NCBI RefSeq assembly: GCF_902806455.1
Contig: NZ_CADCWQ010000001.1
Location: forward strand, 186,001-250,000
DNA length: 64,000 nucleotides
From: Virgibacillus doumboii
GTDB taxonomy: Bacteria; Bacillota; Bacilli; Bacillales; Amphibacillaceae
Direction: 5' to 3'
Numbering within the stretch: the first letter of the stretch is position 1; every line of letters starts with the position of its first letter. Shown in pieces: positions 36,585 to 47,610 of the stretch. The notes under the pieces are model-generated. The model ran no database searches. It was not told the DNA's origin and was given only the letters and a program-made list of their open reading frames with translations. The position numbers and the translations under genes are program-made.

Positions 36585-37697
36585 TTGGAAAGAAACTCTA
36601 CAATAGATGTTATGAAGTGTATTGCAGTATTTCTAGTTGTCAGTTTACACACGGTGACTTATGGCTATGATTGGCAGGAAGTTGAATATATCCGTTTTAT
36701 CATTCGTGTCTTTCCAAGATGGGTTATTCCCTTTTTCTTTATTGCTGCAGGCTATTTCTTTGCCCGGAAGATCAAACAGCACAATTCCAGGGCGTATTTT
36801 AACCAGTATGTGACTAAATTAATCCGATTGTTTATTATATGGTACTTATTCTATCTGATTTATGACCTTGCTATACAAGTGGTTCTTGCAGTCTATATGG
36901 GATTAAACGTAAAAGCTGAATTACTGGATTACATAACATCATATGTGAATGTAAATGATCTTTACTATGGAAGCGGAATGACGTCCTATCATCTATGGTT
37001 CTTGACTGCACTTATCTGGTCAATGGTTATTTTGTATGTTGCTTTAAGATTTAATAAACTTAAATTTCTATTGATTGTGAGCTGTGTCCTTAACATAATC
37101 GGACTTTTCGGACAGACATACTCGAGCATCTTCAGTTTACCGATACACACTAGAGATGCTTTATTTTTCGGGTTGTTTTATACAACGATAGGTTGCTATA
37201 TTGCAATGCATCGCGACTGGATTATCAAGAAGATCAGTGGGATTAAATCAAGTATCTTTGTTTATTTGTTCCTATTATTATCATTGATTCAAATTGGTGA
37301 ATGGTTTCTAACAGTTAAAATATTGGATGGGACAAAAATGTTCGGTGACTATTATGCAACAACGGCCCCTTTAACTATCAGTCTCTTTTTGATAACGTTA
37401 AAAAACATTTCAACAGGAAGAAACACATTCATCGCTAAAGTAGGCAAAAATGCAGTAGGAATATATGTCTCACATTTGTTTGTAATAAGTATAATTATTC
37501 TTTTATTTAAATTACTGGATATAAGTTATTTAAGAAACAATTTTTGGTTTAACCTTATGTTAGTGCTGACAATTTTCTTTATTTCATACTATTTCTTCAT
37601 ATTTTTTAACAGCTTATTAAATAAAATTAAGATCTTGTTTTTATCGTTTATCGGGGATAGAAAGCATTTAAGGCAATCGAACAAAACAGCAATGTAA
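36585..37697 (+). CDS. Membrane acyltransferase (acyltransferase 3 family)
   Basis: Polytopic protein of about 370 residues with roughly ten TM segments; STIDVMKCIAVFLVVSLHTVTYG carries the family's N-terminal histidine. Likely O-acylates the exported polymer. Start is uncertain: TTG 36585 has GAAGGGATGGG 7 nt upstream, while ATG 36573 lies inside that ribosome site and would add four residues. Last gene of the EPS locus, before the terminator at 37753. Confidence 0.83.
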   Translation: MERNSTIDVMKCIAVFLVVSLHTVTYGYDWQEVEYIRFIIRVFPRWVIPFFFIAAGYFFARKIKQHNSRAYFNQYVTKLIRLFIIWYLFYLIYDLAIQVVLAVYMGLNVKAELLDYITSYVNVNDLYYGSGMTSYHLWFLTALIWSMVILYVALRFNKLKFLLIVSCVLNIIGLFGQTYSSIFSLPIHTRDALFFGLFYTTIGCYIAMHRDWIIKKISGIKSSIFVYLFLLLSLIQIGEWFLTVKILDGTKMFGDYYATTAPLTISLFLITLKNISTGRNTFIAKVGKNAVGIYVSHLFVISIIILLFKLLDISYLRNNFWFNLMLVLTIFFISYYFFIFFNSLLNKIKILFLSFIGDRKHLRQSNKTAM

Positions 37698-37752
37698 AAG
37701 GGTAAAAAGGTGGAAGGTATGATTTTCAAGAAAGGATATGAAGATGCTCCAG

Positions 37753-37790
37753 GGGATAGCGATTTTATTCATGCTATCCCTTCATTTTTT
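37753..37790 (+). terminator. Rho-independent terminator closing the EPS locus
   Basis: GGGATAGC (37753-37760) and GCTATCCC (37773-37780) form a perfect 8-bp stem with a 12-nt loop, followed by ttcaTTTTTT. Confidence 0.8.
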
Positions 37791-37875
37791 GCTGATTAGG
37801 CGGGCTACCCAAATACCTGTAAAACATAAAATTAGTGAGCAGAAAGTAACTTAACATTTTACTATGGAGGTAATT

Positions 37876-39870
37876 ATGAGTGCTATCGCTGGAATTTATA
37901 ATTTAAATAATGAACCTGTTTCGATAGAACATAGTCACGGCATAATGAAATCATTACAAAAATTCCCCGCTGATGATGTTCAGGTATGGCAAAAAGAAAA
38001 TACTTTCTTAGGCTGCCATGCACAATGGATTACGCCTGTATCAGTTGGGGAGCAACTGCCTTATTTTGACTATGAGCGACAGTTGGCTATTACTGCTGAT
38101 GCAATAATTGATAATCGTGAAGAATTGTTACAGAAGTTGCAGATTGATAAAGACGAAGGAAAAATAATGCCCGACAGCAAGTTGATTTTGCTTGCCTACT
38201 ATAAATGGGAGGAAGAAACACTTAAGCATTTAATTGGTGATTTCGCATTTATGATTTGGGACGAGCGGAAGCAGAAGCTTTTCGGGGCAAGAGATTTTTC
38301 TGGTGCCAGAACGCTTTATTTTCACAAGAGCCCGCAGCGATTTGCTTTTTGTACAGCAATTGGCCCGTTGTTAACGCTACCTTATATTCAAAAGCAATTG
38401 AATGAACAATGGCTTGCTGAATATTTGGCTATACCGAACATGATTGATGCGGTAGATGGCTCCTTAACTGTAATTAAAGGTACCAAACAGGTTCCTCCAT
38501 CCCACTCAATTACAGTAGTCGAAGGACAAGTAAACATTTCAAAATATCATACTTTGGTTGTTAATAAAGAGATAAAGTATAAAAATGATCGGGATTATGT
38601 TGATGCTTTTCGAGATGTGTTTCAAAATGCGGTAGACTCACGATTACGTACGCATCTTCCTGTTGGTTCCCAGTTGAGTGGCGGATTGGACTCAGGAGCA
38701 GTTGTCAGTTTTGCTGCTAAAACATTGAGAAAGAAGAATAAACAATTACATACATTTAGTTATATTCCGGAAAGTGACTTTAAAGATTGGACGCCACGAC
38801 ACAGAATGGCTAATGAACAGCCCTTTGTTGAATCAACTGTACAACATGTAGGGGGTATTAAGGACCACTATTTGAACTTTGAAGGGAAAAGTTCTATCTC
38901 AGAAATAGATGAATGGCTTGAAATAATGGAAATGCCTTATAAATTTTTTGAGAACTCCTTCTGGGTGAAAGGAATTTTTGAGAAGGCTAAACAACAAGGA
39001 ATCGGAGTATTATTAAGCGGCGCCAGGGGGAATTTTTCAATATCCTGGGGACCGGCTTTGGACTATTATGCGGGTTTATTAAGAAAAATGAAATGGTTTC
39101 GTCTGAATAGTGAATTGCAGCGTTATAGCATAAACAACGGAGTAAATAAAAAAGCCCGCTTACTTCAACTTATTGGAAAGAAGGCATTCCCATCCTTAAA
39201 CCGCTCAAAAGAAGTTTATCAATTGCCAATGCTAATTAATCCTGAATTTGCCAAAAGGATGGATGTTTTTAATAAAGTAGAAAGCCACGGAATTGATATA
39301 AACAGAGATTCTAAACCTAATATATATGAAGTTAGGAAGCAGCATTTTGAAAAGGAATATATGTGGAATTCGACTGGAACATCCGGAACAAAATTATCCT
39401 TGCGTTATGGGTTATGGAATCGCGATCCAACAAATGATATAAGGGTAATTCGATATTGTTTGGCCTTACCGGAAGAACAATTTGTGAGAAATGGATTAGA
39501 CAGGGCGCTTATTAGAAGGGCTACAAAAGTATATCTACCTGACAAAGTAAGGTTGAATCAAAGCGTAAGAGGCATTCAAGGGGCTGATTGGGTTCATCGG
39601 ATGACACCTTCCTGGGGACTTTTTATAAAAGAATTGCAGCAGCTGGTTATGGATCCCATCGTTTCGGAATTCTTAAATATTAAACTATTGAAGACTGCCA
39701 TTTCCAAGCTTAAGGAAGGACCACGATTAGATTACGCATTTGATCCGGAGCTCAGGGTTCTAATGCGTAGTTTAATCGTTTATAGATTCTTAAAAGCATT
39801 TTATCTTAAAGGAGGTGAAATATATGCAGAAAGAATGGGAAAGGCCAGTGTTGGAAGTGCTGGATATTAG
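37876..39870 (+). CDS. Lasso peptide cyclase 1 (asparagine synthetase-like)
   Basis: ATP-dependent macrolactam synthetase (lasso protein C), 664 residues. The N-terminal glutaminase-like domain begins M-S-A-I-A-G-I-Y: the nucleophilic Cys2 of true AsnB is missing, so it cannot use glutamine. The synthetase domain has the PP-loop SQLSGGLDSGAVVSF (around residue 270). It adenylates the side-chain carboxylate of the core Asp and joins it to the core N-terminus. ATG 37876 has GGAGG 5 nt upstream. Its last 47 nt overlap the precursor gene. Similar along its whole length to the second cyclase at 40497. Confidence 0.92.
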   Translation: MSAIAGIYNLNNEPVSIEHSHGIMKSLQKFPADDVQVWQKENTFLGCHAQWITPVSVGEQLPYFDYERQLAITADAIIDNREELLQKLQIDKDEGKIMPDSKLILLAYYKWEEETLKHLIGDFAFMIWDERKQKLFGARDFSGARTLYFHKSPQRFAFCTAIGPLLTLPYIQKQLNEQWLAEYLAIPNMIDAVDGSLTVIKGTKQVPPSHSITVVEGQVNISKYHTLVVNKEIKYKNDRDYVDAFRDVFQNAVDSRLRTHLPVGSQLSGGLDSGAVVSFAAKTLRKKNKQLHTFSYIPESDFKDWTPRHRMANEQPFVESTVQHVGGIKDHYLNFEGKSSISEIDEWLEIMEMPYKFFENSFWVKGIFEKAKQQGIGVLLSGARGNFSISWGPALDYYAGLLRKMKWFRLNSELQRYSINNGVNKKARLLQLIGKKAFPSLNRSKEVYQLPMLINPEFAKRMDVFNKVESHGIDINRDSKPNIYEVRKQHFEKEYMWNSTGTSGTKLSLRYGLWNRDPTNDIRVIRYCLALPEEQFVRNGLDRALIRRATKVYLPDKVRLNQSVRGIQGADWVHRMTPSWGLFIKELQQLVMDPIVSEFLNIKLLKTAISKLKEGPRLDYAFDPELRVLMRSLIVYRFLKAFYLKGGEIYAERMGKASVGSAGY

Positions 39871-39955
39871 CATGACAATGCAAGGTCCGGGGATTAGGGA
39901 TGTGGATGCTACGTTTGAAGATGAGGATGAAGTAGCGCATCTTCATAAGAGTTAA
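39824..39955 (+). CDS. Lasso precursor peptide A1 (paeninodin-like)
   Basis: A 43-residue precursor with AAGGAGGTG upstream of ATG 39824. The leader (1-19) has the conserved W/Y..P...L..LD pattern (KEWERPVLEVLDI) and Thr18 at position -2. The core (20-43) begins QGPGIRDVD; D28, core position 9, is the expected ring acceptor, giving a 9-residue ring as in paeninodin (AGPG...D9). D26 (position 7) is an alternative. The tail is acidic (FEDEDE) and ends HLHKS, with a terminal Ser, the residue phosphorylated in paeninodin. Gln at position 1 is unusual. Confidence 0.9.
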   Translation: MQKEWERPVLEVLDISMTMQGPGIRDVDATFEDEDEVAHLHKS

Positions 39956-39987
39956 TTTCTAGTCCTGACTTAATGTTTTATTTTTAA

Positions 39988-40021
39988 ATGCCCTTATGCA
40001 TCAATTATTGTATAAGGGCAT
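39988..40021 (+). terminator. Hairpin after precursor A1 (terminator or attenuator)
   Basis: A 13-bp stem (39988-40000 with 40009-40021, core ATGCCCTTAT/ATAAGGGCAT) with 8-nt loop, 32 nt after the A1 stop, followed by a moderately T-rich 'agaatttcttt'. A related CCCTTAT/ATAAGGG hairpin follows A2, so it seems part of the duplicated module. Confidence 0.6.
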
Positions 40022-40166
40022 AGAATTTCTTTATCTTACTAGCTTGCTGTATAAAGTAAAGTTATTATTTTCGACAGGGGAAAGTAGGCATATTAGGCGA
40101 GATAAGCAAAATTTACTATTTAAAATGAGGTAAGTCTAATTAACTACATTTCCAACTCCGGATAGT

Positions 40167-40290
40167 GCCTGATAAATAGATTGAAAAAGGCATTGCACCT
40201 TCCAAGTAAGAGTTGAAACAGTTAAGCTTGGCTGGCAACACGAATTGTGTTCCAAATGGCTTAATTATATATGCATTTATGAAAGGGTTA
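40167..40290 (+). pseudogene. SAF-domain oxidoreductase remnant
   Basis: The DNA aligns with 36321-36440 of the SAF-domain gene: both contain ATTGAAAAAGGCATTG, then stretches coding for F-Q-V-R-x-E-x-V-K and, in a shifted frame, N-C-V-P-N-G-L-I-I-Y-A-F-M-K against N-H-V-P-I-G-L-L-V-N-A-V-M-K. Stops and indels break the frame. It is a degenerate piece of a second copy of that gene, lying between the two lasso modules and marking an old recombination junction. Confidence 0.75.
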
Positions 40291-40311
40291 TAAAAAAATT
40301 AGAAATAAGTA

Positions 40312-40340
40312 TTGAAATTCCACTCAAAATGGGGTATGTT
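40312..40340 (+). promoter_or_regulatory. Candidate promoter for the second lasso module
   Basis: TTGAAA (40312-40317), 17-nt spacer, TATGTT (40335-40340). The SinR-like palindrome at 40338-40353 overlaps its -10 and start region. Confidence 0.45.
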
Positions 40341-40353
40341 CTTTATATAGAAC
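40338..40353. promoter_or_regulatory. SinR-like operator before lasso cyclase 2 (distal)
   Basis: GTTCTTTATATAGAAC, 16 nt, half site GTTCTTT; the flanks gtat/atac extend the symmetry. It sits at the candidate promoter of the second module. Confidence 0.55.
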
Positions 40354-40450
40354 CATACAGGTGTAAAGTCACATTAATCACCTAATATACTGTTTTGGAC
40401 ACAATTTAGATTATAGCAAATTAAGCAACAGCTTTTTTTATGATTTTATA

Positions 40451-40466
40451 GTTCTTATTAAAGAAC
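40451..40466. promoter_or_regulatory. SinR-like operator before lasso cyclase 2 (proximal)
   Basis: GTTCTTATTAAAGAAC is a 6+4+6 perfect inverted repeat of the same 16-nt format as the eps operators, 30 nt before the cyclase start. Two sites 113 nt apart resemble the paired arrangement at eps. Confidence 0.55.
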
Positions 40467-40496
40467 AAACGATGATCTTTTTTAGGAGAAGATACG

Positions 40497-42482
40497 ATGA
40501 GTGCAATTGCTGGAATTTATTATGTAAAAGACACTGTTCCCAAAATTCATGGACAACAAATGATGCAGGCATTAAGCAAGTTTCCTGCAGATGCCGTGCA
40601 AACCTGGAACAAAGAAAATGTGTTTTTAGGGTGCCATGCACAGTGGGTTACACCGGAATCAATCGGTGAACAATTGCCTTTATATGATTATGATCGACAA
40701 TTGGCAATTACGTCAGATGCAATGATTGATAATCGGGAAGAACTATTTGATAAATTAGGAATTCATCGTGAGGAAAGGAAAGTGATTCCGGACGGTAAAT
40801 TGATTCTTCTTGCGTATTCGAAATGGGGAGATGAAGTTGTAAAACATTTGATTGGTGATTTTGCTTTTATGATTTGGGATGAAAAAAACCAAAAGTTATT
40901 TGGGGCAAGAGATTTTTCCGGAACAAGGTCGCTTTATTATTACCATGATGATCAGCGATTTGCATTCTGTACAGTCATGGAACCATTACTAAAACTGCCC
41001 TATGTAAAAAAGAAATTAAATGAAGAGTGGCTGGCTGAGTATTTGGCAATTCCGAACATGATTGACTCAGTTGATGTATTAAAAACTGCCGTTAAGGATA
41101 TTCAACAAGTTCCTCCCTCACATACGATTACTGTAAAGAATGGAAGCGTGAACCTTTCTAAGTATCATGTACTATCATTTGACGAAAAAATTAGATTCAA
41201 GTCAGATGAAGAATACATTGAGGCTTTCCGTGATGTTTTCCAGAAAGCGGTTGACTCAAGATTACGTACATTTAAAGCAGTTGGATCACAATTGAGTGGT
41301 GGACTCGACTCAGGATCGATTGTTAGTTTTGCTGCAAAAACGTTGAAAAAACAAAATAAGAGATTACATACCTACAGTTCGATTCCTGTGGAAGATTTTA
41401 ACGATTATACACCAAGACATCATTTCCCTGACGAACGCCCATTTATCAATAAAACCGTTGATTATGTAGGAAATATTGAAGATCACTATTTAAGTCTAGA
41501 TGATAAAAATTCTTATACAGATATCGATGACTGGCTGGAAGTTATCGAAACGCCTTATAAATTTTTCGAGAATTCATTCTGGATGAAAGGTATTTTTGAA
41601 CATGCGAGTAATGATGATATTGGGATTTTATTAAGCGGAGCGAGAGGAAACTTTACAATATCTTGGGATCCGGGATTAGAGTATTATAGTCATTTATTAA
41701 AGCGTATGAAATGGATTCATTTTGCCCGTGAACTTAAATCTTTTAGCAGTAATATTGGAGTAGGGAGGAAAAAAGTACTTCAAGTTATAAGTAAAAAGGC
41801 CTTTCCTTTTTTAAGCCATGAAGACGACTATCAATTTCCGATGCTTATTAATCCTCATTTTGCTAGTGAGATGAACGTGTTTGATAAACTTCAAAAATAT
41901 GGAATGGGAGAAGATGGATTCCCCGAACTCAACATGTTTAAAGAAAGGCAATACCTTGTTGGTAAAGATTTTATTTGGAATACAAATGGAATATCATTCT
42001 CGAAGTTATCTTTGCAATATGGATTATTAATGCGTGATCCAACCAATGATATCCGTGTGATAAATTATTGTATGGCTATTCCATTGGATCAATTTATTAA
42101 TAGCGGAATGAACCGAGCGCTTATCAGAAAAGCAACAAAAGGGTATCTGCCGGATGAAGTGAGGTTAAACCAAACAAAATATGGACTTCAAGCAGCGGAT
42201 TGGGTTCATCGGATGATACCCTGCTGGACAGATTTAATTAAAGAGGCGAAACAGCTAGTGAAAGATAAGGATATGGCACAATATTTGAATATGGGGACGG
42301 TAAAAAATGCCCTTTCTAAAGCAATGGAAGTTCCAAAAGGTGATTTTACCCCTAATCCTGATCTTAGAGTCCTAATGCGTAGTATAATCGTATATCGATT
42401 TCTACAATCATTTGACCTTGAAGGAGGTGATACATATGAAAAAGAAATGGAAAGAGCCAAGACTAGAATTGTTGGATATTAG
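40497..42482 (+). CDS. Lasso peptide cyclase 2 (asparagine synthetase-like)
   Basis: Second lasso macrolactam synthetase, 661 residues, colinear with cyclase 1. It starts M-S-A-I-A-G-I-Y-Y, again without Cys2, and has SQLSGGLDSGSIVSF as PP-loop. Both end with the same pattern (LRVLMRS.IVYRFL followed by GG), where the downstream precursor's ribosome site is embedded. TTAGGAGAAG precedes ATG 40497. Divergence from cyclase 1 and the different core suggest each cyclase serves its own peptide. Confidence 0.92.
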   Translation: MSAIAGIYYVKDTVPKIHGQQMMQALSKFPADAVQTWNKENVFLGCHAQWVTPESIGEQLPLYDYDRQLAITSDAMIDNREELFDKLGIHREERKVIPDGKLILLAYSKWGDEVVKHLIGDFAFMIWDEKNQKLFGARDFSGTRSLYYYHDDQRFAFCTVMEPLLKLPYVKKKLNEEWLAEYLAIPNMIDSVDVLKTAVKDIQQVPPSHTITVKNGSVNLSKYHVLSFDEKIRFKSDEEYIEAFRDVFQKAVDSRLRTFKAVGSQLSGGLDSGSIVSFAAKTLKKQNKRLHTYSSIPVEDFNDYTPRHHFPDERPFINKTVDYVGNIEDHYLSLDDKNSYTDIDDWLEVIETPYKFFENSFWMKGIFEHASNDDIGILLSGARGNFTISWDPGLEYYSHLLKRMKWIHFARELKSFSSNIGVGRKKVLQVISKKAFPFLSHEDDYQFPMLINPHFASEMNVFDKLQKYGMGEDGFPELNMFKERQYLVGKDFIWNTNGISFSKLSLQYGLLMRDPTNDIRVINYCMAIPLDQFINSGMNRALIRKATKGYLPDEVRLNQTKYGLQAADWVHRMIPCWTDLIKEAKQLVKDKDMAQYLNMGTVKNALSKAMEVPKGDFTPNPDLRVLMRSIIVYRFLQSFDLEGGDTYEKEMERAKTRIVGY

Positions 42483-42609
42483 AGAGACAATGCTGGGTAG
42501 TTGGAAAGGTGGCCATGATGCAATATTTGATTTCAATGATAAAGGTTGGTACCCGGACAATCCAGGTGGTGGCGGTAACGATGGCGGAGGCGGCAACATC
42601 GGTAGTTAA
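42436..42609 (+). CDS. Lasso precursor peptide A2 with long glycine-rich tail
   Basis: A 57-residue precursor; ATG 42436 follows AAGGAGGTGAT and overlaps cyclase 2 by 47 nt. Leader (1-19): MKKKWKEPRLELLDIRETM, with the W..P..LELLDI signature and Thr18 at -2. Core (20-57, 38 residues) begins LGSWKGGHD; D28 at core position 9 is the ring acceptor. The tail contains FDFNDKGWYPDNP, then GGGGNDGGGG and ends NIGS. A 38-residue core is long for a lasso peptide (commonly 15-26), and the Gly blocks are unusual. It ends in Ser, fitting the cluster's kinase. Confidence 0.9.
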   Translation: MKKKWKEPRLELLDIRETMLGSWKGGHDAIFDFNDKGWYPDNPGGGGNDGGGGNIGS

Positions 42610-42781
42610 ATTATGAAATTCGATAGTTTTTACCTAGGTCTGTTTGTATTGCCATATTTAATAGAAGTTTAATAGTAATCAGGCGATGCGGGACCAGGGT
42701 AGAAGTTATGGACCAATATGATGTTTATGAACCAACTATCATTTTGGTTATTGTAAGCCGTATTCAACATTAATTCCATTG

Positions 42782-42811
42782 ACCCTTATACATACCAGTT
42801 TGTATAAGGGT
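42782..42811 (+). terminator. Hairpin after precursor A2 (terminator or attenuator)
   Basis: Perfect 11-bp stem ACCCTTATACA/TGTATAAGGGT (42782-42792 with 42801-42811), 8-nt loop, followed by 'tattcttta'. Same sequence type as the hairpin after A1. Partial termination here would give more precursor than processing enzymes. The rest of the 318-nt gap between A2 and the kinase shows no convincing gene. Confidence 0.65.
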
Positions 42812-42927
42812 TATTCTTTAATATAGAAAAGATTACTATTTTTTGAGACTGTACAATAGTGTTGAGAGATCTACGTTTCATTTGTTTGCAATATTTTATT
42901 TATCATAAAAAAGTAGGTGAGTAACTA

Positions 42928-43854
42928 GTGTTTCAAACAACTAAAGCCACATCCTATGCAGCATTTGGATTAAACATTTTAAGTGAATATTTTTTACCTG
43001 AATTAAAACGTAATAGTAATGAAGATTGTGATTCAGATTTAATAATCAAGAAAGAAGACCTATCTATCTTTTGGCTGGAAAATGCCCAAACAGACTCCTA
43101 TTACTACATCAAAGAAAACCTTTGCATGGTCAGGGTTCCCGATGTAGCCATTTACAAAATTGAAGATGGAAGGGGAATTTCGGTATCTCCTTTCGAAGGC
43201 TCAAACGATGACCAGATCCGACTTTATATACTTGGCACGTGTTTGGGTGTAGCACTCATGCAACGAAAAATATTACCTATACATGGAAGCTGCATTGCTA
43301 TTGATGGGAAAGCCTATGCTATTGTAGGTGATTCCGGTGCAGGAAAATCAACGCTGGCTTCCGCATTTGTAAATCGGGGCTTTCAATTACTTACAGATGA
43401 TGTCATAGCTGTGACGCTATCTGAGGAAAATGTTCCGATTGTTATACCTTCCTATCCACAGCAAAAATTATGGCAGGAAAGTTTGGACCAGTTCGGCCTC
43501 AAGTCTAATCAGTTTAAACCTATTTATGATAGAGAAACAAAATTTGCAATTCCTGTTACCGACCATTTTCTTGATAAACCCATGCCCTTAGCGGGGATTT
43601 TTGAATTGAATAAAACAGATCAACATGAAATTGAAATATTACCTGTTCAGCAATTAGAGCGGTTTCCTATTCTCTACTATAATACCTACCGGAACTTTAT
43701 GATTAATCGTTCCGGACTAATGGAGTGGCACTTTGAGTTTTCAGCCAATATGGTAAATCGGATTGATTTTTATCAAATAATGAGACCAAGTTCACGATTC
43801 ACTGCTCATGAATTGGTGGATAACATATTAAATTTAATAAACAAGGGAGAGTAA
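42928..43854 (+). CDS. Lasso peptide tailoring kinase (HPr kinase-like, PadeK/PsmK type)
   Basis: A 308-residue P-loop kinase resembling the C-terminal domain of HPr kinase: GDSGAGKST Walker A at about 134-142 and TDDVIAV at about 157-163, where the catalytic Asp of HprK lies. In the paeninodin cluster the homologue phosphorylates the C-terminal Ser of the precursor; both precursors here end in Ser. GTG 42928 has AGGTGAG 7 nt upstream. The N-terminal 110 residues are unlike HprK and may recognise the precursor. It opens the shared processing operon. Confidence 0.88.
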   Translation: MFQTTKATSYAAFGLNILSEYFLPELKRNSNEDCDSDLIIKKEDLSIFWLENAQTDSYYYIKENLCMVRVPDVAIYKIEDGRGISVSPFEGSNDDQIRLYILGTCLGVALMQRKILPIHGSCIAIDGKAYAIVGDSGAGKSTLASAFVNRGFQLLTDDVIAVTLSEENVPIVIPSYPQQKLWQESLDQFGLKSNQFKPIYDRETKFAIPVTDHFLDKPMPLAGIFELNKTDQHEIEILPVQQLERFPILYYNTYRNFMINRSGLMEWHFEFSANMVNRIDFYQIMRPSSRFTAHELVDNILNLINKGE

Positions 43855-43859
43855 GACAT

Positions 43860-44150
43860 ATGAATAAAACAATCTCAATAAACGATATTGTAAGTCAGAT
43901 AGAAGGAAATATTGTCAGTGACATGGATGGAGAAAAAGTCATGTTAAGTATCCAAAATGGAAAGTATTACAATCTTGGTGAAATTGGCGGGGAGATTTGG
44001 GAGTTTATCAAAGAACCTGCATCAATTCATGACCTGATTCGTTCGTTAGTAGCGCAATATGATGTAGAAGAAAGTGAATGCAGGGATCAGACTATTGGAT
44101 TCATAGATCATTTATTAGAAGAAGGTTTAGTAAAGGTAGAGTCTGCTTAA
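43860..44150 (+). CDS. Lasso RRE protein B1 (PqqD-like)
   Basis: RiPP recognition element, 96 residues, binding the leader and presenting it to B2. The PqqD-like winged-helix signature is seen in GEKVMLSIQNGKYYNLGEIG, EIWEFIKEPASIHDLI and VEESECRDQTIGFIDHLLEEGLVKV. Starts 5 nt after the kinase stop with an AAGGGAGAG ribosome site. A separate B1, rather than a B1-B2 fusion, is typical of Gram-positive lasso clusters. Confidence 0.9.
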   Translation: MNKTISINDIVSQIEGNIVSDMDGEKVMLSIQNGKYYNLGEIGGEIWEFIKEPASIHDLIRSLVAQYDVEESECRDQTIGFIDHLLEEGLVKVESA

Positions 44151-44167
44151 GAAGGGGAAAGAGCGAG

Positions 44168-44614
44168 ATGCGAAAGGTAAACATACTTCTGTCGTTAAAT
44201 ATGGAAATGAAAGTGCTCTTATTCGAAGCATATTTTTATCTAGCCTGGGGGCGTATGCTAAAAGGGATGCCCTTTTCAAAAATTGCCCCTTCACTGGGAG
44301 AAAAAATGAAAGAAACATCGACCAATCTAAATCCTGAATACAGAAGGAAGTTGGGAGGAATATCCCAAGCGATACAAATCATGAGCAAGTATACGTTTTG
44401 GGAAAGTGAATGCCTTGTTAAAGCAATTGCCGCAATGAAGATGCTGGAAAAACGGGACATTGAAAGCACGCTTTACCTGGGAATGGCAAAAGATGAATCG
44501 GGCCAATTAATTGCCCATGCTTGGTTGCGCAGTGGCCCTTTCTATATAACTGGTGCGGCAGGGATGGAACGTTTTACAGTTGTCAACAAGTTTGCAAAAA
44601 CCTTGTCAAAGTAA
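44168..44614 (+). CDS. Lasso leader peptidase B2 (transglutaminase-like Cys protease)
   Basis: A 148-residue lasso protein B2. The catalytic Cys82 is in WESECLVKAIAAM and His117 in LIAHAWLRSGP; the Asp of the triad is probably within the following GP.YITG.. region by family comparison, not seen directly. It cuts after the leader residue following Thr(-2). ATG 44168 follows GAAGGGGAAAG and lies 17 nt after the B1 stop. Confidence 0.9.
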   Translation: MRKVNILLSLNMEMKVLLFEAYFYLAWGRMLKGMPFSKIAPSLGEKMKETSTNLNPEYRRKLGGISQAIQIMSKYTFWESECLVKAIAAMKMLEKRDIESTLYLGMAKDESGQLIAHAWLRSGPFYITGAAGMERFTVVNKFAKTLSK

Positions 44615-44626
44615 GGAGAGAACGAT

Positions 44627-45802
44627 ATGAAACGGTTCAATCTTGATATCTCCAACGTACCAAATGAACTTCGCTTCATAATTGAGCTATTAAAAAACGA
44701 AGATATTGCTACTATCAATCCAATAGTTTATAAGAATATTGATTGGAAAGCATTTATAGAATTGTTATTTCATCACCGATTATACCCGATTATCTATTCA
44801 AAATTAAAACAGTTTGACGGGGGAATTGTACCACCGGATGTGGTGAATTATATTTCCATTTACTACAAGAAAAACACATTGCAAATGCTGAAATTCAGTG
44901 CAGTGACGGAAAATATCAGCAGACTGTTTGCTGAAAATCGGATTCCACTCATTTTATTAAAAGGGCCGGCACTTGGTCATTTATTGTATGGGGACATTTC
45001 ACTAAGAACCTCCAGTGACTTAGATTTCCTGGTTCCTATTGAGGAACTGGAAAAAACGGATAGATTGCTTGCCGAACAGGGCTATCAAAAACATGATTAC
45101 ATAAAAACAGTACTTAATGATTGGAAATGGCGACATCACCATGTAACTTATTATCATCCCCAGCAACAAATCAAAATGGAAATTCATTGGCGATTAAATC
45201 CTGGTCCCGCTAAAGAACCTGGTTTTCAGGAATTATGGGAGAGGAAAAATAGAAGTAAGTTTACTAGTTTTCCAGTTTATTTATTAGGGAAAGAGGATTT
45301 ATTCTTATTTCTAACGTCTCATGGTGCACGCCACGGCTGGTCACGGCTTCGCTGGTTGGTCGATATTCAGGAATTGGTTAAACAAGAAATAGATTGGAAA
45401 AAAGTAAATGATAAATTAAGAGTATGTTACTATAAAAAGCCTGCAGGGCAAGGACTTTTATTGGCATCTTGTCTTTTAAATTCGGGGATAAGTCATGAAA
45501 TGCAGCGATTAATGAAAGCTAAATCGACAATGCATTTAGCTCAGCAGGCGGTATATTATTTGGAAAATAGGATTAATCTGCACACAGATCCGGTTCCGGA
45601 AGATGTAGCGCACTTTCATAAACATCATTTATTTTCATTGATGGGTTGGCGGCAGAAATGGTTATTTTTATTGAGTTTCTTATACCCTTATCCAGATGAT
45701 GTAGAAACATTACCATTACCAAAAACCTTGCACTTTCTCTATTTTCCATTACGGCCAATTTTGTGGGCTTACCGGAAGACGAGAAAAATTGCCTTTTCAT
45801 AG
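44627..45802 (+). CDS. Lasso-associated nucleotidyltransferase family protein (NTP_transf_5, PsmN type)
   Basis: A 391-residue protein of the nucleotidyltransferase family found in phosphorylated-lasso clusters. ILLKGPALGHLLYGDISLRTSSDLDFLV contains the G-S/D-x-D metal site (SSDLDFLV, about residues 130-137), and KMEIHWRLNPG the third acidic residue. In pseudomycoidin biosynthesis the homologue PsmN adds hexoses to the phosphorylated C-terminus, so a sugar-type second modification is plausible here. An AAGGAGAG ribosome site precedes ATG 44627. Confidence 0.85.
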   Translation: MKRFNLDISNVPNELRFIIELLKNEDIATINPIVYKNIDWKAFIELLFHHRLYPIIYSKLKQFDGGIVPPDVVNYISIYYKKNTLQMLKFSAVTENISRLFAENRIPLILLKGPALGHLLYGDISLRTSSDLDFLVPIEELEKTDRLLAEQGYQKHDYIKTVLNDWKWRHHHVTYYHPQQQIKMEIHWRLNPGPAKEPGFQELWERKNRSKFTSFPVYLLGKEDLFLFLTSHGARHGWSRLRWLVDIQELVKQEIDWKKVNDKLRVCYYKKPAGQGLLLASCLLNSGISHEMQRLMKAKSTMHLAQQAVYYLENRINLHTDPVPEDVAHFHKHHLFSLMGWRQKWLFLLSFLYPYPDDVETLPLPKTLHFLYFPLRPILWAYRKTRKIAFS

Positions 45803-45810
45803 GGGGGACG

Positions 45811-47610
45811 ATGATGAAATCCATCATTTATTTTTTAAAACAAATACACGCTTACTCTGGGAAAATTGTTTATATAAATCTTATGGCAATGACGGGGATT
45901 GGTTTATTAGAAGGTGTAGCTATTTTATTACTGATACCATTAATCAGTATAAGTGGAATTATCGACATGGGTGTAGAGGGAATCCCTCTTTTAAACAATC
46001 TTGGTTTTATTGAAAATATCCCCCCTCTTATTGGACTTCCTGTGATTTTAACTTTTTATGTTTTACTTGTAATTGGTCAAAATATCGTGCGCAGACAGTT
46101 AACAGTGAAGAATACAGAAATACAACAGGGTTTTCTACGATACATGCAGGTGGAAACCTATAAGTCAATACTTCATTCAAATTGGCAATTTTTTGTCAAA
46201 CAAAGAAAATCGGATTTGGTAAACATTCTGACATCAGAAATTGGTCGTTCGAGTATGGGGGCGTATTCTGTATTAAAGTTTATTTCATCTACGGCATTTT
46301 CCGCCATTCAAATTGGTCTTGCTTTCATTCTCTCACCCAGTATAACCATTTTTGTATTGCTATGCGGTTTGATTCTCATCTTTTTTAATCGTAAGTTCCT
46401 TAAACGGTCACTTGCCTTAGGAAGAAGAAATTTTGAATTAGGCCGGGAATACCTTGGGGGTGTTACGGATCAGATGAATGGGATTAAAGATATTAAAAGT
46501 AACACACTTGAAGATTCCAGAATGGTTTGGTTTCAATCGATTACTAAAGATATGAAAAATCAACAAGTGGAATACACAAGATTAAAAGCAACCTCACAAC
46601 TATATTACAAAGTAGCATCAGCGTTATTAATTGCTGTGTTTATTTATTTTGCCTTAATGATGTTTCAGGCACAGGCAGCACAACTTCTTTTAATAACAGC
46701 GATTTTTTCCAGGTTATGGCCAACAGTTGCTGGTATACAAGCATCATTGGAACAAATTGCATCAACGATTCCATCATTTAAAGCAGTGATAGCGTTACAG
46801 AATGAATGTAAGATTGCAAGGGAATTTGAGAAAAATAAAGAAGAAAAAATTATACCGTTACAGGTCCAGAATGGTATCGAATGTGATCACATCCATTTCC
46901 GATACAACCAGCGTAAAAATAATTATGCACTTAAAGATATTGACATTACCATCCCCGCAACCCAAATGATGGCATTTGTAGGGCGCTCGGGTGCTGGGAA
47001 AAGTACATTAATTGATATTTTATTGGGATTAAATAAACCGGAAAAGGGGCAAGTCATTATTGATGGGGTACCATTAACCAGTGATCAGTTATTAGCATGG
47101 AGAAGGTCCATCAGCTACGTACCACAGGATCCATTCCTATTTAATACGAGTATACGAGACAATCTTCTTTTAGTAGAACCTGATGCGAGTGAAGAACAAA
47201 TGTGGGATGCCCTTGATTTCTCCTCGGCAGCAGAGTTTGTGAGTAAGCTGCCGGATGGACTTGATACGTTAATTGGCGATCGCGGGATAAAATTATCCGG
47301 CGGTGAGCGGCAGCGGCTTGTTTTGGCTCGCGCAATCTTGCGTAACCCATCTATTCTTGTACTGGATGAAGCAACAAGTTCACTTGATACGGAAAATGAG
47401 GCAAAAATCCAGGAAGCATTGGATAGGCTGAAAGGGAAAATGACAATCATAGTAATTGCGCACCGTCTATCAACGATTCGAAACGCCGACCAAGTGGTTG
47501 TGCTGGAAGAAGGTGAAATCGTCCAAAAAGGCGGGTTCACCCAGCTGGCAGGTGAGAAAAGAAGCACATTCAGTTATTTATTACAGAATCAAACGGAAGT
47601 TACACAATAA
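45811..47610 (+). CDS. Lasso peptide ABC exporter (LanT-less type, protein D)
   Basis: Fused ABC half-transporter, 599 residues: six TM segments in the first 320, then GRSGAGKST (Walker A), LSGGERQR (signature), LVLDEATSSLD (Walker B) and IAHRLST. It has no N-terminal peptidase domain, consistent with leader removal by B2. It should export the mature lasso peptides and give immunity. Start is ATG 45811 or the adjacent ATG 45814, after AGGGGGG. It follows the nucleotidyltransferase by 8 nt. Confidence 0.88.
   Translation: MMKSIIYFLKQIHAYSGKIVYINLMAMTGIGLLEGVAILLLIPLISISGIIDMGVEGIPLLNNLGFIENIPPLIGLPVILTFYVLLVIGQNIVRRQLTVKNTEIQQGFLRYMQVETYKSILHSNWQFFVKQRKSDLVNILTSEIGRSSMGAYSVLKFISSTAFSAIQIGLAFILSPSITIFVLLCGLILIFFNRKFLKRSLALGRRNFELGREYLGGVTDQMNGIKDIKSNTLEDSRMVWFQSITKDMKNQQVEYTRLKATSQLYYKVASALLIAVFIYFALMMFQAQAAQLLLITAIFSRLWPTVAGIQASLEQIASTIPSFKAVIALQNECKIAREFEKNKEEKIIPLQVQNGIECDHIHFRYNQRKNNYALKDIDITIPATQMMAFVGRSGAGKSTLIDILLGLNKPEKGQVIIDGVPLTSDQLLAWRRSISYVPQDPFLFNTSIRDNLLLVEPDASEEQMWDALDFSSAAEFVSKLPDGLDTLIGDRGIKLSGGERQRLVLARAILRNPSILVLDEATSSLDTENEAKIQEALDRLKGKMTIIVIAHRLSTIRNADQVVVLEEGEIVQKGGFTQLAGEKRSTFSYLLQNQTEVTQ

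Follow-up and report, generated by a model that had tools for sequence, protein, structure and literature searches.

The lasso peptide cluster considered here lies in a stretch of 64,000 nucleotides from Virgibacillus doumboii (positions 186,001 to 250,000 of contig NZ_CADCWQ010000001.1, assembly GCF_902806455.1), which is called the window below and in whose coordinates the positions are given. On its forward strand, two genes for lasso macrolactam cyclases, each with its own precursor gene (C1-A1 and C2-A2), stand in tandem upstream of a single kinase (K), leader-binding protein (B1), leader peptidase (B2), NTP_transf_5 protein (N) and ABC exporter (D). This order had been proposed in a preliminary description, and it is confirmed by translation and by family models. 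The start of the cluster at 37876 also stands, while its end, formerly set at 45802, lies further downstream, as the exporter reaches 47610. The five genes from K to D are referred to below as the chassis.

Both cyclases have the lasso cyclase family NF033535 as their top NCBIfam match, with scores below its cut-off of 525 bits (383 for C1 and 410 for C2), and both pass the cut-off of PF00733; the assignment is also in line with a tree of cyclases. C1 (37876–39870, 664 amino acids) starts with an N-terminal GATase-like domain that begins MSAIAG, with no cysteine at position 2, and has an asparagine-synthetase domain at residues 245–561 (nt 38608–39558). In C2 (40497–42482, 661 amino acids), the synthetase domain covers residues 244–607 (nt 41226–42317), and a structure model of this protein (mean pLDDT 77, pTM 0.83; PDB matches TsnB9, asparagine synthetase and beta-lactam synthetase) supports a fold of the asparagine synthetase type. 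The two proteins are identical at 395 of 661 aligned residues (60%). Each retains 78 of the 79 columns that are conserved in at least 97% of 154 cyclases, C1 and C2 included, and the ratio of nonsynonymous to synonymous divergence (dN/dS) against their nearest relatives is about 0.12–0.17.

The precursors A1 (39824–39955, 43 amino acids) and A2 (42436–42609, 57 amino acids) both score above the cut-off of 27 bits of the paeninodin family NF033524 (56.8 and 36.3 bits, respectively). With the predicted leader cut, the leader of A1, which has a W..P motif and a threonine at −2, is encoded by 39824–39880 and its core, QGPGIRDVDATFEDEDEVAHLHKS, by 39881–39952, and the leader of A2 is encoded by 42436–42492 and its core, LGSWKGGHDAIFDFNDKGWYPDNPGGGGNDGGGGNIGS, which has a long glycine-rich tail, by 42493–42606. 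As had been described, the leaders are alike (identical at 11 of 19 residues), whereas the cores, which start with QGPGIRDVD and LGSWKGGHD, have little in common. The leader motif, Asp9 and a C-terminal serine are present in both precursors, and the macrolactam rings are likely to be Gln1-Asp9 in A1 and Leu1-Asp9 in A2.

In the chassis, K (42928–43854, with a GTG start) is an HprK-like kinase that scores 35.3 bits against PF07475, for which the cut-off is 33.3. B1 (43860–44150), a PqqD-like leader-binding protein (RRE), and B2 (44168–44614), a transglutaminase-like leader peptidase, score above the cut-offs of NF033536 and NF033537, so that the split B1/B2 arrangement is present. N (44627–45802) passes the cut-off of PF14907, and D (45811–47610) is an MsbA-like exporter with PF00664 and PF00005. 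When the genome (3.9 Mb in 4 contigs) was searched, B1 and B2 each gave a single match, K gave one full match and one weak partial match (E 2.9e-4), and C2 as a query recovered C1, C2 and three weak partial matches (27–30% identity); only two precursors of the paeninodin family were found. With one B1, one B2 and one such kinase for two precursors, the chassis must be shared. The suggestion that one B1/B2/kinase set serves both precursors is thus upheld, the searches having returned no second B1, B2 or kinase of this family.

The tailoring reactions can be proposed by analogy. PadeK is reported to phosphorylate the C-terminal serine of the linear precursor, and PsmN has been linked to the addition of a hexose (PMC9266682), while PadeB2 is reported to work independently of PadeC (PMC5067487). 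A C-terminal serine is found on 148 of the 149 first precursors of the set described below, regardless of core class, and K would be expected to phosphorylate that of A1 and A2. Similarly, from its match to PF14907 and by analogy with PsmN, N would probably add a hexose to the phosphate.

Clusters with two cyclases had been regarded as unusual, and this is not borne out. With a cyclase profile built from 13 rows, matches were obtained in 28 of the family's 159 genomes and in 90 of 397 sampled genomes of the order, the latter screen scoring no more than three candidates in each genome, so that second copies can be missed; as 6 genomes are common to both lists, this gives 112 cyclase-bearing genomes. 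In 113 fetched stretches, annotated with profiles together with 22 loci (L006–L027) and counting cyclases of at least 560 amino acids, two cyclases occur in one cluster in 30 of the 112 genomes. The search for further clusters with the C-A-C-A-K-B1-B2-N-D order, which had been suggested as a check, showed that in 28 of these 30 the modules stand in tandem before K-B1-B2-N-D, including one (L137) in which the second precursor was not found. Of the other two, one is interleaved (L075) and one has its second pair on the far side of the exporter (L146). In the second cyclases of L137, L144 and L164, the beginning of the profile is missing, and truncated or broken cyclases occur in other relatives (L008, L009, L086, L162, L169 and L171).

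The two cores of such a cluster are of different kinds. Sequence patterns were used to divide the cores into eight named classes, with the rest kept as a remainder; the classes differ in 29 of the 29 two-cyclase clusters with both cores assigned. In 27 of them, the second core belongs to the CYS class, which is typically NGPGNANADCFDV...SNASC, is conserved and usually has two cysteines; these cores possibly carry a disulfide. The cyclases of this class are split from the rest by a branch with support 100, save that of L139, where the pattern produced a label error. The combination found in the window, QGPG with SWDG, occurs nowhere else in the set. Among the titles and openings of abstracts listed, none concerned two-cyclase lasso clusters or cyclase-precursor exchange, in a search that left most subscription journals outside and from which absence from print is not claimed; the sole match for "two cyclases" refers to a polyketide cluster.

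It had also been proposed that each cyclase is dedicated to its own core, and this is supported by the co-inheritance of cyclases and core classes, a line of evidence that is comparative and not experimental. Mapped onto the tree of 154 cyclases, the core classes require 21 changes if the five unlabelled rows are treated as a group and 16 without them, compared with a mean of 101 for shuffled labels (with the first labels). C1 groups with the cyclase of a QGPG-class module (L066, support 99), and C2 falls inside a clade in which 9 of 9 members are of the SWDG class (support 100). In 81 one-module clusters, the core classes change 15 times on the tree of C, compared with 29 for K, 33 for B1, 31 for B2 and 30 for D. 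Core distance is correlated with C distance when B1 and K are accounted for (partial r 0.278, p 0.003, 299 permutations), whereas, given C, there is no correlation with B1 (−0.019, p 0.72) or K (0.004, p 0.39). Furthermore, among 72 pairs of clusters whose chassis are more than 70% identical, the core class is not the same in 26, and in these the cyclases are 47–66% identical; five of these 26 compare a two-module cluster with one sharing its other module (the window with L007, L065, L008 and L009, and L068 with L074). In all three clusters with two precursors directly behind one cyclase (L079, L081 and L118), the two belong to one class.

Within the cyclase, the core signal is unevenly distributed. 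In one-module clusters, core classes change 27 times on the tree of residues 1–235, which is close to the chassis genes, and 16 and 17 times on those of residues 245–460 and 461–640. The same three parts are correlated with core distance at r 0.095, 0.322 and 0.357, respectively. Leader distance, by contrast, has its highest correlation with residues 1–235 (0.338), and the partial correlation of the first part given the last is 0.266 (p 0.003), that of the reverse 0.083 (p 0.067). With pairs more than 85% identical omitted, the nearest neighbour is of the same core class in 62 of 148 cases for alignment columns 1–100 and in 127 of 149 for columns 351–450. These observations suggest that core divergence follows the synthetase domain of the cyclase and not its N-terminal domain.

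A related observation concerns the N-terminal domain by itself. Stand-alone proteins of 226–240 amino acids that match only the GATase-like domain of the cyclase are encoded either past the exporter or ahead of the cyclase in several relatives (L067, 14120–14848; L069, 3206–3958 on the minus strand; L070, 13135–13884; L077, 2941–3678 on the minus strand; L008 and L009, 8968–9696), and three of them have a common C-terminus, SSSYDE[FY]V. They may be either remnants or a real partner protein.

Pairs of related clusters seem to record the exchange itself. Six were profiled, most of them selected either from the highest entries in a list of cyclase pairs that are much more similar in the N-terminal part than in the synthetase part or for the closeness of their chassis; breakpoints were read from pairwise profiles. 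In L066 and L071, which come from two species of the window's genus and have first cores of the QGPG and LGDG class, respectively, the first 450 nt of C1 are 83–92% identical; identity is 52–72% from there to about 2400 nt, through the rest of C1 and A1, and then 82–96% over module 2 and the chassis. Upstream of C1, their aligned stretch is only 49–66% identical. In L136 and L140, identity is 91–98% before and into C2 (82% in one bin of 150 nt), 77% in the bin at 750, 52–69% at 900–2400 nt, where C2 ends and A2 lies, 73% in the bin after that and 89–99% thereafter. Their cores are both of the CYS class, yet they differ widely (NGPGNANADCFDV... and GGPGNAIDDSYCT...). In the remaining pairs the pattern is partial. 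L110/L112 and L103/L115 are 87–96% identical over the first 450 nt of C and little else, and show one boundary only; in L150/L151, C-A is 50–72% and the chassis again 81–93% identical (74% in the last full bin); and L069/L070 have only a mild step, from about 75 to 60%, with no return within the aligned stretch. Synonymous divergence (dS) rises from nt 1–450 to nt 733–end, from 0.13 to 2.7 in L136/L140, from 0.43 to 2.2 in L110/L112 and from 0.53 to 2.9 in L066/L071, where values above 1 are saturated. Because dS rises across the boundary, protein constraint alone does not account for the step. In L066/L071 and L136/L140, both pairs of related species, the synthetase domain and the precursor were replaced between conserved stretches.

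The cluster of the window has mixed affinities as well. Its chassis is sister to that of Lentibacillus persicus (L007, support 100), with 75, 89, 78, 78 and 78% identity for K, B1, B2, N and D, respectively, compared with 59, 61, 66, 57 and 75% to L066. C2 is also close to L007 (76%), as it is to L065 (77%), and a stretch between A1 and C2 (40288–40357) resembles what lies ahead of the L007 cyclase. C1, on the other hand, is 75% identical to its counterpart in L066 and 60% to that in L007, and upstream of C1, over the acyltransferase gene, a stretch of about 1 kb is 69–70% identical to L066 and L071. The cluster is therefore probably a recombinant of two cluster types. Its left part (C1-A1) would derive from the type seen in the same-genus species with a QGPG+CYS cluster (L066), and its right part (the upstream region, C2-A2 and the chassis) from that of the one-module cluster of L. 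persicus. The hybrid affinities could be explained by one crossover between A1 and C2 or by an insertion of C1-A1 before a one-module cluster.

In summary, it is fairly likely that the cluster directs the synthesis of two phosphorylated, perhaps glycosylated, lasso peptides of the paeninodin type, with a separate cyclase for closing each of them and a single chassis that reads the leaders. In this scheme, B1 would bind the similar leaders of A1 and A2, K would phosphorylate the C-terminal serine of each precursor and B2 would cleave off the leader. The freed core would then be threaded and its N-terminal amine joined to Asp9 by its own cyclase, C1 closing QGPGIRDVD... and C2 closing LGSWKGGHD..., a pairing taken from co-inheritance. 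Finally, N would probably place a hexose on the phosphate, and D would export both products. The monoisotopic masses calculated for the predicted products are 2646.231 (lasso), 2726.197 (phosphorylated) and 2888.250 (with hexose as well) for the first, and 3773.652, 3853.618 and 4015.671 for the second, the linear cores being 18.011 heavier than the lasso forms. The core would be chosen mainly by the synthetase domain of the cyclase, while the leader, kinase, peptidase and exporter steps would be generic. Given that PadeK acts on the linear precursor, that PadeB2 is independent of PadeC and that the serine is nearly universal, the binding of the leader, the phosphorylation and the removal of the leader can all be generic, and ring closure is then the first step that must read the core. 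The gene content, the single chassis, the co-inheritance of cyclase and core class, the swap boundaries in relatives and the hybrid affinities are all features of sequence; the products, the ring closure, the pairing of cyclases with cores and the modifications are what we infer from them.

A broader proposal is more tentative, and we give it slightly less than an even chance. Lasso cyclases of Bacillales would be made of two parts, a glutaminase-like N-terminal domain, lacking its catalytic cysteine, that goes with the leader and the chassis, and a synthetase domain that goes with the core. The synthetase domain and the precursor would recombine as a specificity cassette while the chassis stays unchanged, the exchange taking place inside C or involving entire C-A modules, and two-module clusters such as this hybrid would be the visible outcome. 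Paeninodin-type tailoring and the use of several precursors by one enzyme set are known; the exchangeable cyclase-precursor unit is the newer part.

Several observations weigh against the main reading. The classes rest on patterns made by the authors, and the labels of L139 and L115 were corrected after the first tree, although the distance tests are label-free; the QGPG class is not resolved as a single clade (3 changes on the tree), and the rank correlations are modest (0.3–0.36). If the first module of each of 116 clusters is taken, the class changes number 14 for C and 43 for K+B1+B2+D (43 for K, 49 for B1, 47 for B2 and 45 for D, with 49 for N from 110 clusters), but this contrast is inflated because module 1 of a two-module cluster does not stand beside the chassis. 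Leaders from the same two-module cluster resemble each other no more than leaders from different clusters do (p 0.36), and an adjustment of leaders to a shared B1 within a cluster was thus not found. In addition, six clusters contain an extra WxxP precursor, ending in serine, whose core is of quite another kind and for which there is no additional cyclase (L072 at 7240, L073 at 7464, L088 at 6744, L148 at 3931 and L151 at 4921, all on the minus strand, and L145 at 11278 on the plus strand). These counts are incomplete, as the scan overlooked 14 of 149 known precursors. Four of the six lack an acidic residue at 7–9, while in L072 and L073, where the extra precursor is placed between B1 and B2, position 9 is acidic. 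The products of the six may be linear, perhaps phosphopeptides made on a lasso chassis, but their cores could also be closed by a non-dedicated cyclase.

A rival view, which we consider unlikely, is that cyclases are broadly tolerant and that C and A are inherited together merely through their adjacency or overlap. As C and A are neighbours, part of their co-inheritance, and of the uneven signal within the cyclase, is indeed linkage, and K, which is the next gene in most one-module clusters, also tracks core class above chance: in windows of K, the same-class count among the 81 one-module clusters is 47 for residues 1–100, 36 for 76–175 and 43 for 151–250, where chance is about 0.17. Single cyclases that handle several cores are also known, as reported for caulosegnins I–III (PMC13352647), and the extra precursors of L072 and L073 have no cyclase of their own. 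Nevertheless, at a similar distance from A, windows of C surpass those of K (64 of 81 for residues 451–550, 60 for 376–475 and 59 for 301–400), and the C window nearest to A (526–625, 52 of 81) does worse than those farther away. The three cyclases with two precursors of one class directly behind them speak in the same direction. A recent local duplication of one C-A pair, leaving redundant cyclases, might be suspected from the tandem order, the equal overlaps and the common leader type, but it is contradicted by the tree and the identities and was rejected as highly improbable: each cyclase is nearer to that of another species (C1 to L066, C2 to L007 and L065) than to the other at 60%, and a comparison of the two synthetase domains in 27 clusters that include a CYS module shows no greater similarity inside a cluster than from one cluster to another (p 0.54).

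That one module is silent or decaying, so that a single lasso peptide is made, appears improbable. Broken cyclases do occur in some relatives, but both cyclases of the window are full length, keep 78 of the 79 conserved columns and have dN/dS values of about 0.12–0.17, and both precursors have the leader motif, Asp9 and a C-terminal serine. Finally, the two cyclases might form a mixed complex that is jointly needed for one or both products, for which a weak excess similarity of N-terminal domains within clusters (p 0.013–0.04) could be cited. This is very improbable, since each class is also found with a sole cyclase of at least 560 amino acids in the stretch (SWDG in 8 loci, CYS in 5 and QGPG in 3). 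The same weak excess (p 0.013 and 0.04), with none in the synthetase domain, is all that was seen of gene conversion between paired cyclases, and no claim is made for it. Two cyclases, each with its own core, on one chassis remain the preferred reading.

As had been noted, each precursor overlaps its cyclase by exactly 47 nt, which could be taken as an independent sign of coupling in the two modules. That idea was set aside, because the overlap is a product of the conserved leader: the frame of the cyclase enters the leader and stops at one of few positions in it. Of 149 modules, 11 have an overlap of 47 nt, 7 one of 41 nt and a single module one of 50 nt, and the most frequent single arrangement is a precursor start 14 nt past the end of the cyclase. 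With regard to ring size, counting from position 7 onwards, the first acidic residue falls at 10 in 16 of 16 STGP cores and 7 of 9 NPSG cores (for instance, L012, L097 and L125), which would mean rings of 10 residues if the leader is cut after Thr-X.

Stem-loops of 13 bp with similar sequences follow A1 (39988–40021) and A2 (42780–42813), both on the plus strand. In general, a stem of at least 9 bp is found within 300 nt 3′ of the precursor in 125 of the 149 modules, compared with 11.3 expected from base-shuffled sequence; the arms often resemble CCCTTATAC/GTATAAGGG, and CCCTTAT is present in 67 of 122 listed hairpins. An Rfam scan of the hairpins of the window gave no family, its one match lying elsewhere and far under its gathering score. 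The stem-loop is placed inside the operon, after the precursor, and is possibly a partial terminator or a stabiliser of the mRNA ahead of the tailoring genes. Between the modules, 40288–40357 (plus strand) resembles the sequence that precedes the cyclase gene of SWDG-class clusters (80–83% identity to L007, L008 and L009, 74–75% to L011 and L063) and is a possible remnant of the C2 promoter region. A promoter-like match within it (40312–40340) is not above chance. In 37650–43000, 14 promoter-like sites were found, fewer than in shuffles (20.4), and 5 terminator-like sites compared with 3.3, which is little excess; neither count was used as evidence on transcription.

Ahead of the cluster, in positions 1–37000 of the window, lie capsular or exopolysaccharide genes; 4 of the 8 scanned proteins of the upstream neighbourhood are Wzz, a polysaccharide synthesis protein (Polysacc_synt_2) and two glycosyltransferases. 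Capsular polysaccharide loci are reported to house clusters of this kind (PMC13381572), and the window fits that placement.

Among known systems, the paeninodin cluster of Paenibacillus dendritiformis is one of the closest. It has the same C-A order, an HprK-like kinase acting on the C-terminal serine, a split B1/B2 and an ABC exporter (PMC9266682, PMC5067487), and its family NF033524 takes in A1 and A2; as described in those reports, however, it has one cyclase and one precursor, while the window has two of each and N in addition. The pseudomycoidin cluster of Bacillus pseudomycoides likewise combines a kinase with the nucleotidyltransferase-like PsmN, linked to a hexose on the phosphate (PMC9266682). 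A single peptide is described there, unlike the two modules of the window, whose N is likened to PsmN by analogy. Several precursors on one enzyme set are known from reports on caulosegnins and other clusters (PMC13352647, PMC13381572). In caulosegnin-type clusters, several lasso peptides also come from one cluster, but the same enzymes are reported to serve all three precursors (PMC13352647), whereas in the window a separate cyclase appears to go with each core class. The linear polyphosphorylated peptide (LPP) clusters known from Bacillota are similar in their kinase, NTP transferase, MsbA-like exporter, RRE and location in capsular polysaccharide regions, and differ, according to their description (PMC13381572), in having no cyclase, YxxP leaders and a signal-peptidase-like enzyme. 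The cluster of the window, with WxxP leaders and two cyclases, is thus not of the LPP type, which is defined by a YxxP leader and the lack of a cyclase.

The core specificity of lasso cyclases is described as an open problem in a 2026 review, which also states that no crystal structure of a lasso cyclase is available (PMC13352647). If the synthetase domain and the precursor are indeed exchanged on a constant chassis, the swap boundaries at about residues 150–300 would suggest where the joints of chimeric cyclases might be placed. The cluster of the window would then offer a four-way test in one strain, with two cores, two cyclases and all else identical.

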